Of a DNA stretch of 64,000 nt, positions 9,799 to 61,560 are shown in pieces; the first letter of the stretch is position 1, and every line of letters starts with the position of its first letter. Made by a program: the position numbers and the translations under genes. The stretch is from an uncultured Helicobacteraceae bacterium (lineage in GTDB: Bacteria; Campylobacterota; Campylobacteria; Campylobacterales; Helicobacteraceae): contig CALUUD010000002.1 of assembly GCA_944323885.1 (NCBI GenBank), forward strand, positions 186,001 through 250,000, written 5' to 3'. The notes beneath the pieces are model-generated. The model did no database searches and was not told where the DNA came from. It saw nothing but the letters and a program-made list of their open reading frames with translations.

Positions 9799-10407
9799 AT
9801 GAATATTAAACAATATTACCTAGATGCTAATGCTCTCTTAGAAGGACATTTTTTATTAAGTAGTGGGAATCACTCTAATTATTATTTACAATCTGCTAAA
9901 GTTTTAGAAAATCCAAAAGTAGCGGAGATTCTTGCAATTGAATTAGCAAGGAAAATTAAAGAATATGGACTTACAATAGATTGTGTATGTTCACCTGCGC
10001 TTGGTGGTATTTTAGCTGGATATGAACTTGCAAGGGCTCTTGGTGTAAAATTTATATTTACAGAAAGAGTAAATGGCATAATGAGTCTTAGACGAGGTTT
10101 TAGTGTAAGAAATAATGATAATATTGTTATTTGCGAAGATATAATTACGACTGGTGGTAGCGCCTTGGAGTCTGCAAATTGTGTAGAATCTATAGGGGGG
10201 AGGGTTGTTGCTTTTGCAGCTCTTGCAAATAGAGGATTTTGCAAAAGAGTAGATTCTCAATTTGATAGAAAAATTGAATGCAAGCTTCCATATAATGTTC
10301 CATTGTTTGCATTAGATGACTTTGTTTTTGATATGTATGATGAGAAATCATGTCCTATGTGTGCTAGCGGTTCTATAGCTGTTAAACCTGGAAGTCGTGG
10401 AAATTAA
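9799..10407 (+). CDS. pyrE: Orotate phosphoribosyltransferase
   Basis: Converts orotate and PRPP to OMP in pyrimidine synthesis. The 202-residue protein carries the PRPP-binding loop [16 protein letters not shown] and the type I PRTase regions [15 protein letters not shown] and [15 protein letters not shown]. The C-terminal [18 protein letters not shown] extension is typical of the longer, Campylobacterota-type PyrE. It begins 4 bases after frr. A run of six G at 10195-10200 lies in the coding sequence (Gly-Gly) and is too short to expect phase variation. Confidence 0.95.
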
Positions 10408-33998: not shown

Positions 33999-35015
33999 CT
34001 ATTTTAGGTAAATATCGTATGCTTTTTTATCTATACATTTTGCTATTATACTAGAATCTATACCTTCATTATTAAGTATCTTATTTAATTCTTCTGCATC
34101 TTTAGAATCTAAAGCTATTAAAAGACCACCAGAAGTTTGTGCATCATAATATATAATATCATCTTTATTTGTATTATTTTTAATCCTAGATTCTAGTGCG
34201 GATTTATTTTTATAACTACCACCAGGTATAATTCCATTCTTTGCAAAATCTTTTACTCTATCAAATAATCTCACATTATTTAAATATACTTCAATTGATA
34301 TATCATCATTCACCATTTCTATTATATGGCCAAGCAGCCCAAATCCTGTTACATCGCTTGCTGCATGTATGTTAAATCTTCTTGCAATATCCATTGCATA
34401 TTTGTTTAATGTTGCCATTGATTTTACTACATCTATATCTTTATTAAACTCCATTTTTCCATTTTTCATTGCGGTAGATAAAATTCCACTTCCAATAGGT
34501 TTTGTTAGTATTATATAATCTCCTATTTTTGCTGTATTATTTCTATAGTATATGGAATCAAAAATAATACCTGTAACACTAAGTCCAAATTTTTGTTCAT
34601 TATCATTGATGCTATGACCACCTATTAATGGACATTTACATTCTATAAGCTTAGTTAAAGCACCTTGTATTATTTCATTTGCTTCATCTGTGTTTAAATG
34701 TTCTTTATCCCACATAAAAATACTCATAGCACTTTTTGGAATAGCTCCTTTTGCAAATACATCACTAAGTGAATTTGCAGCAGCAATTTGTCCATAAGTA
34801 AATGGATCATCTACAATTGGTGTTATAAAGTCTAGACTTTGAGCTAGTATAATATCGCCTATTTTTATGATTCCACAATCATCATTGTCTTTAAAATCAA
34901 CTAATAGTTCTTCATATTGTGGTTGTTCTAAGCCTTTTGTAATTTGTTTTAAGTCTTCCAGACCTACTTTTGCAGCTCAACCAGCACAACTAACAAATTG
35001 AGTAATCTTTTTCAC
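33999..35015 (-). CDS. selD: Selenide, water dikinase containing selenocysteine (in-frame UGA at codon 13)
   Basis: SelD makes selenophosphate from selenide and ATP, the selenium donor for tRNA-Sec and 2-selenouridine. A naive call begins at an internal ATG (34727, 242 residues) and misses the N-terminus. Reading from GTG 35015 (behind AAAGGGC) gives a 338-residue protein of normal length, MKKITQFVSCAG-U-AAKVG, in which the UGA at 34977-34979 falls exactly on the catalytic Cys/Sec position of SelD (E. coli Cys17), three residues before the essential lysine. The frame stays open throughout and family motifs continue (DDCGIIKIGD, FTYGQIAAANSLSDVFAKGA, GGHSIND). A SECIS-like hairpin follows the UGA. 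Sec-type SelD is known in some bacteria, including Campylobacter. Decoding needs selA, selB and selC elsewhere. Confidence 0.92.
34950..34966 (-). promoter_or_regulatory. Candidate bacterial SECIS hairpin in selD mRNA
   Basis: Ten bases after the UGA, TAGGTCT-GGA-AGACTTA can fold into a 7-bp stem with a GGA loop on the - strand. Length and distance resemble the upper stem of E. coli fdhF SECIS; it also contains GGUCU, but here mostly within the stem, so SelB specificity would differ. Confidence 0.5.
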
Positions 35016-35092
35016 ATAATTGCCCTTTATTAAAATTGAATAATTATAGCTATTTTGCTTTAATTTTAAAAAAATATTTAGGAGTTATGTTT

Positions 35093-45969: not shown

Positions 45970-46515
45970 TTAGAATTTAACAGCTCCAGTTGTTGCAAGA
46001 GGTATTATTCTGTTGCTTCCACTTGGGTAAGAATCTCTTAGTCCTTTACAGAATGTTCCTCCGTTACCACCTTGGCCAGAACCTCCAGCTAAGTTTATAT
46101 TTGCAGGATTGAATACTAGGTTGCCAGTAGTTGTATCTAGTGTAATTATTGCTCCACATCCACCAGTAGTCCCAGCATTACCTCCAGTAGTCACATTTCC
46201 AAGTGGTTGAATTCCATTATTTCCATTTGCACCATTTCCACCTGTTTGCCATCTACCTCTATCTAATCCACCTGTATCTATCATCCATTCACCCCAGTTG
46301 CTAAAGCCAGTAGGAGCAGATTGTGTAGGATCTATATTTTCAGCAAAGATTCTTGCAGGAATTGCTTTTAATACACTAGCAATATCACTTCTTGCCATTG
46401 CAATTTGTGCATCAGTTCTTGTTGTTACAAATCTAGGAACAGCAACAGCTGCTAAAACTCCAAGAATTACTATAACAAATACTAATTCTATCATTGAAAA
46501 ACCACTTCTTTTCAT
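45970..46515 (-). CDS. Type IV pilin-like/pseudopilin protein A
   Basis: A 181-residue exported protein with a prepilin leader MKRSG cleaved before FSMIELVFVIVILGVLAAVAVPRF; the +5 glutamate is present. The conserved head continues to GLDRGRWQ (about 90), then a glycine/asparagine-rich middle (about 90-155) with two cysteines (GGCG, TFC) probably forming a disulfide, and a conserved tail SYPSGSNR-IIPLATTGAVKF. The ATG at 46515 follows GGAG at proper spacing; the frame extends four codons further to a TTG inside the ribosome site. Protein B at 60940-61488 is its close paralogue. Pilus assembly and peptidase genes are not in the window, so its machine is unknown. Confidence 0.85.
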   Translation of the reverse strand: MKRSGFSMIELVFVIVILGVLAAVAVPRFVTTRTDAQIAMARSDIASVLKAIPARIFAENIDPTQSAPTGFSNWGEWMIDTGGLDRGRWQTGGNGANGNNGIQPLGNVTTGGNAGTTGGCGAIITLDTTTGNLVFNPANINLAGGSGQGGNGGTFCKGLRDSYPSGSNRIIPLATTGAVKF

Positions 46516-46587
46516 TTTATTCTCCAAAAAGTAAATTCTTTAACTCTAAATTAGAGTAATAGAGTAAAAGTAAATGAAATATAAACA
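46405..46587 (-). repeat. 183-bp repeat spanning pseudopilin A start and upstream region
   Basis: Identical with 61378-61560. It covers about 111 coding bases (leader and hydrophobic helix), the ribosome site, and about 70 bases upstream including ACTCTAA-A-TTAGAGT. Both copies have the same orientation. Confidence 0.93.
46543..46557. promoter_or_regulatory. ACTCTAA-A-TTAGAGT palindrome upstream of pseudopilin A
   Basis: A 7-bp perfect inverted repeat with one central base, 28 bases before the start, with a further AGAGT half-copy at 46561-46565. It is kept in the paralogue (61516-61530). Could be an operator or a leader hairpin. Confidence 0.45.
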
Positions 46588-60939: not shown

Positions 60940-61488
60940 CTAGAACTTAACAGCTCCAGTTGTTGCAAGAGGGATAACTCTGTTACTTCCACTTGGGTAA
61001 GATGCTTTTAATGCATCACAGAATGTTTTATTACTTGGATCACTTGTATTGATATTAAATGGATTAAATATTAATGTCCCATCTGTTATATTAATTCCTA
61101 TAATACCTCCACAACCGCCTACTTGGTTATTTCCACTACCTGATGCTCTTTGATTACCAATTGGTGCTATTGCATTATTTTGTGATACTCCATTTAAACC
61201 AGTAACATGTTGTGCCAACTGCCATCTACCTCTATCAAGACCTGCTGTATCTATCATCCATTCACCCCAGTTGCTAAAGCCAGTAGGAGTAGCTTGTGTA
61301 GGATCTATATTTTCAGCAAAGATTCTTGCAGGAATTGCTTTCATTGTGCTAGCAATATCGCTTCTTGCCATTGCAACTTGTGCATCAGTTCTTGTTGTTA
61401 CAAATCTAGGAACAGCAACAGCTGCTAAAACTCCAAGAATTACTATAACAAATACTAATTCTATCATTGAAAAACCACTTCTTTTCAT
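60940..61488 (-). CDS. Type IV pilin-like/pseudopilin protein B
   Basis: A 182-residue paralogue of protein A. Leader MKRSG, helix FSMIELVFVIVILGVLAAVAVPRF and the head to GLDRGRWQ are almost the same as in A, and so is the tail (SYPSGSNRVIPLATTGAVKF). The middle (about 90-160) differs strongly but keeps the two cysteines (GGCG and TFC) and an L/F-V/I-FNP-F/A-NIN core. The ATG at 61488 has the same GGAG ribosome site. It converges with terC. The two genes may encode alternative or stacked subunits of one fibre or secretion pseudopilus. Confidence 0.85.
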   Translation of the reverse strand: MKRSGFSMIELVFVIVILGVLAAVAVPRFVTTRTDAQVAMARSDIASTMKAIPARIFAENIDPTQATPTGFSNWGEWMIDTAGLDRGRWQLAQHVTGLNGVSQNNAIAPIGNQRASGSGNNQVGGCGGIIGINITDGTLIFNPFNINTSDPSNKTFCDALKASYPSGSNRVIPLATTGAVKF

Positions 61489-61560
61489 TTTATTCTCCAA
61501 AAAGTAAATTCTTTAACTCTAAATTAGAGTAATAGAGTAAAAGTAAATGAAATATAAACA
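61378..61560 (-). repeat. 183-bp repeat spanning pseudopilin B start and upstream region
   Basis: Identical with 46405-46587, same orientation, 14,973 bases apart. Identity ends upstream at a T tract that is 10 bases here (61561-61570) and 9 in copy A (46589-46597). Confidence 0.93.

Follow-up and report, generated by a model that had tools for sequence, protein, structure and literature searches.

A selD gene with an in-frame UGA at the catalytic Cys/Sec position in an uncultured relative of Helicobacter pylori

The window, that is, the whole 64,000-nucleotide stretch of DNA analysed here (bases 186001-250000 of contig C2 in a 1.45-Mb genome that is 99.87% complete), carries on its minus strand selD, the gene for selenophosphate synthetase, at positions 33999..35015. 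Read directly, the gene comprises 338 codons plus a stop, begins with GTG at 35015 and is closed by TAG; when it is translated with TGA as U, the sole interruption of the frame is the TGA at 34979-34977, which forms codon 13, in agreement with the coordinates given in a preliminary description of this DNA. The sequence AATAAAGGGCA, read directly 5' of the GTG (35020..35030, minus strand), is a probable ribosome-binding region, as had been proposed. The read-through protein matches the SelD profile TIGR00476 with 316.9 bits (cut-off, 125 bits) over residues 4-306, in an alignment that spans the TGA. The TGA residue aligns with the Cys in SSGCAAKVG of the SelD chain 2yye, the best solved relative, which places it at the catalytic Cys/Sec position, where it had been assigned; based on this alignment and on conservation, we annotate 34977..34979 (minus strand) as a predicted selenocysteine codon. 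The U/CxxK motif required of SelD is present, in the form G-U-A-A-K here versus G-C-A-A-K in 2yye, and UxxK is a listed SelD motif (PMC9312934). The table-11 open reading frame that lies 3' of the TGA encodes 242 amino acids (34727-33999), exactly the shortened product that had been anticipated, and selD is a clean case of a selenoprotein gene shortened by plain gene callers.

Eleven nucleotides after the TGA starts a SECIS-like hairpin, AGGTC-TGGAA-GACTT (34951..34965, minus strand), with a 5-bp stem, extendable to 7 bp, and an invariant GG in the loop, consistent with the report of an invariant guanosine in the loop of epsilonproteobacterial SECIS elements (PMC4607533). In 30 related SelD loci, the sequence that follows the UGA is mostly GCN GCN AAR GTR GGT CTG GAR GAY. 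The Gly codon of the hairpin is GGT in all 30, compared with 16% of Gly codons in the later parts of these genes, and the next codon is CTG in 28/28 cases where it encodes Leu, compared with 4.8% of the Leu codons further along, the two exceptions being CCG. Across these loci, the two arms of the 5-bp stem, alignment columns 15-19 and 25-29, pair in 140/140 cells, and the pairing is lost when the stem partner is slid. The changes within the stem are one-sided only, either A-U/G-U or G-C/G-U, with no two-sided changes among them. The folding energy of the 57-nt region around the hairpin is indistinguishable from that of shuffled sequences, so the argument for the hairpin rests on the codon constraint and the conserved geometry. 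No SECIS family was matched at this hairpin in Rfam at either gathering or relaxed thresholds. In the window as a whole, about 0.5% of TGAs precede a hairpin that scores at least as high as that of SelD on an ad hoc scale devised after the SelD hairpin had been seen.

The machinery for selenocysteine (Sec) insertion is encoded on the same contig. The preliminary description had deduced the presence of selA, selB and selC, and had named the absence of selB or selC as counter-evidence; all 3 genes were found, clustered at C2:351158-354480. The matches score 510.2 bits for selA (cut-off, 267.9) and 273.3 bits for selB (cut-off, 242.25), and Pfam agrees, with SelA and the SelB winged-helix domain; tRNA-Sec, the product of selC, has the anticodon TCA and scores 48.9 bits (gathering score, 47). 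The selA and selB genes overlap by 11 bases, and selC is divergent. Directly downstream of selB, this cluster also contains a 323-aa open reading frame (L009:522-1493, minus strand) that has no matches in Pfam or NCBIfam. In addition, the genome encodes MnmH, another user of selenophosphate.

The search for other genes with an in-frame UGA, which had been suggested as a check, yielded two, one encoding a formate dehydrogenase and the other a DUF466 protein. The gene for the formate dehydrogenase alpha subunit, FdhA (C1:87632-90121), contains one TGA (C1:88013), in the context RV-U-HSP, a known Sec position. The DUF466/Sel_put gene, which starts at C2:71964 (L058:1456-1680, G000 C2), ends with Cys-TGA-TAG, and reading through the TGA raises the Sel_put match from 64.2 to 70.3 bits and extends it to the last profile position. 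Cravedi et al. (PMC4607533) reported a C-terminal Cys-Sec arrangement of this kind in DUF466, and the gene found here probably encodes a third selenoprotein, with Sec predicted as the last residue. A hairpin of the GGGUAUA-GAUUU-UAUACC type lies 3' of the DUF466 TGA; all 3 TGAs, those of SelD, FdhA and DUF466, are followed by a SECIS-like hairpin, with a stem of 5-6 bp and a loop that starts with G, at a distance of 21 or 22 nt from the first base of the UGA. Further selenoproteins were sought in the genome by known families, and the profile search for SelW (PF10262) produced no hit; three TGA-bridged frames in the window (46031-46531 and 61001-61504 on the plus strand, 9885-10403 on the minus strand) lack Pfam matches. 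The sequence features by which a bacterial selenoprotein gene is recognized, namely, a UGA aligned with Sec/Cys, the presence of selA, selB and selC, and a downstream hairpin with G in the loop, were all found for selD, and the prediction that 33999-35015 (minus strand) encodes a SelD with UGA at the catalytic Cys/Sec position is confirmed at the level of sequence.

An interrupted frame could, in principle, result from a sequencing error or from a nonsense mutation that arose recently, in which case the gene would either be intact with a Cys codon or be a pseudogene. This reading draws on the TGA interrupting the frame and on the one relative that has Cys at this position, the family genome G120, whose SelD gene lacks the TGA. 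Of the 121 genomes of the family, 83 have a SelD match that stands clear of the background formed by related kinases, and apart from G120, all of these SelD genes (82/83) have the TGA at the same codon, including all 4 of those found in the genus of the window; in a few cases, the match is split and the TGA lies in its N-terminal part. The context FVxCAG-U-AAKVG is likewise conserved across 30 loci, that of the window and those of other genomes. Because of the TGA in 82/83 family SelD genes and the hairpin codons frozen in 30 loci, a sequencing error is very unlikely, and this conservation speaks against the correction to a sense codon that the preliminary description had named as refuting. 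The rest of the selD frame is intact, and the independent genomes in effect refute error and mutation alike, to which we give a negligible probability overall. Beyond the family, SelD genes with and without the TGA are both common in a sample of 299 genomes from the order, and the TGA-free loci that were read encode Cys at that position (3/3). SelD and tRNA-Sec occur together in 81 of the 121 family genomes and are both missing from 37; of the 3 discordant genomes, G082 and G119, both incomplete assemblies, have SelD only, and G023 has the tRNA only.

The UGA might also be read through by another route, for example, by a near-cognate tRNA-Trp or tRNA-Cys, with a residue other than Sec inserted. 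The sequence alone cannot tell which residue is inserted, but the genome carries tRNA-Sec, SelA and SelB, its other TGA genes have the codon at known Sec positions, and the relatives examined have either UGA or Cys at this site, all of which leaves this route with a very small probability. It is almost certain, judging from these genomic data, that the gene encodes a standard Sec-containing selenophosphate synthetase, with UGA decoded as Sec, and the mechanism deduced in the preliminary description is very likely right. Given the gene parts and the conservation observed here, the known pathway would imply the following decoding and catalysis. The tRNA-Sec would be charged with serine, which SelA would convert to selenocysteine using selenophosphate; SelB would then bring Sec-tRNA to the UGA at codon 13, recognizing the small hairpin downstream; and SelD, with Sec13 replacing the usual Cys, would produce selenophosphate from selenide and ATP, feeding both SelA and MnmH.

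Sec-containing SelD is already known and is the rule in the Helicobacter family, to which the window adds one more genome, leaving the general view unchanged. The SelD of Helicobacter hepaticus was listed among selenoproteins in 2005, and that of C. jejuni was called a known selenoprotein (PMC1242214); Sec-SelD, Sec-Fdh, DUF466, SECIS elements and the sel genes were subsequently mapped over epsilonproteobacteria by Cravedi et al. in 2015 (PMC4607533). All of the present findings agree with this literature. The epsilonproteobacterial Sec-SelDs (Helicobacter hepaticus, H. mustelae, Campylobacter jejuni) share with the window gene the enzyme, the catalytic UGA, the adjacent SECIS hairpin and the sel machinery; the window gene comes from another species, and no difference in kind was found. 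It is 61% identical to the SelD of Helicobacter sp. 13S00482-2, the nearest named locus found, and 82% identical to that of the nearest genome. The Cys-SelDs (2yye and that of G120) belong to the same protein family and share the active-site surroundings, but have Cys where the window SelD has the UGA-encoded residue. FdhA from the same genome is an unrelated enzyme whose UGA likewise precedes a small hairpin with G opening the loop and is presumably decoded by the same machinery, although the hairpin lies farther away, by about 2 nt. This relative of H. pylori has retained the complete selenocysteine system, whose users are SelD, FdhA and, probably, DUF466.

Codon 10 of selD (34986-34988) encodes Cys, three residues ahead of Sec (CAG-U). 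This Cys is present in 30/30 of the nearest SelD loci; other members of the family and order have Val, Ser or Ala at the position. We know of no redox switch of the CxxU kind in other SelD enzymes, and the idea that CxxU forms a selenenylsulfide acting as such a switch in the SelD of this clade seems improbable.

The Sec trait has been lost in the lineage of H. pylori and H. acinonychis (PMC4607533). In G023, a 99% complete single-contig genome of genus g2 that lacks both a SelD match and a SelB above the cut-off, the tRNA-Sec at G023:C1:444363-444457 scores 50.4 bits, over the family cut-off, and is possibly a relict selC from this loss.
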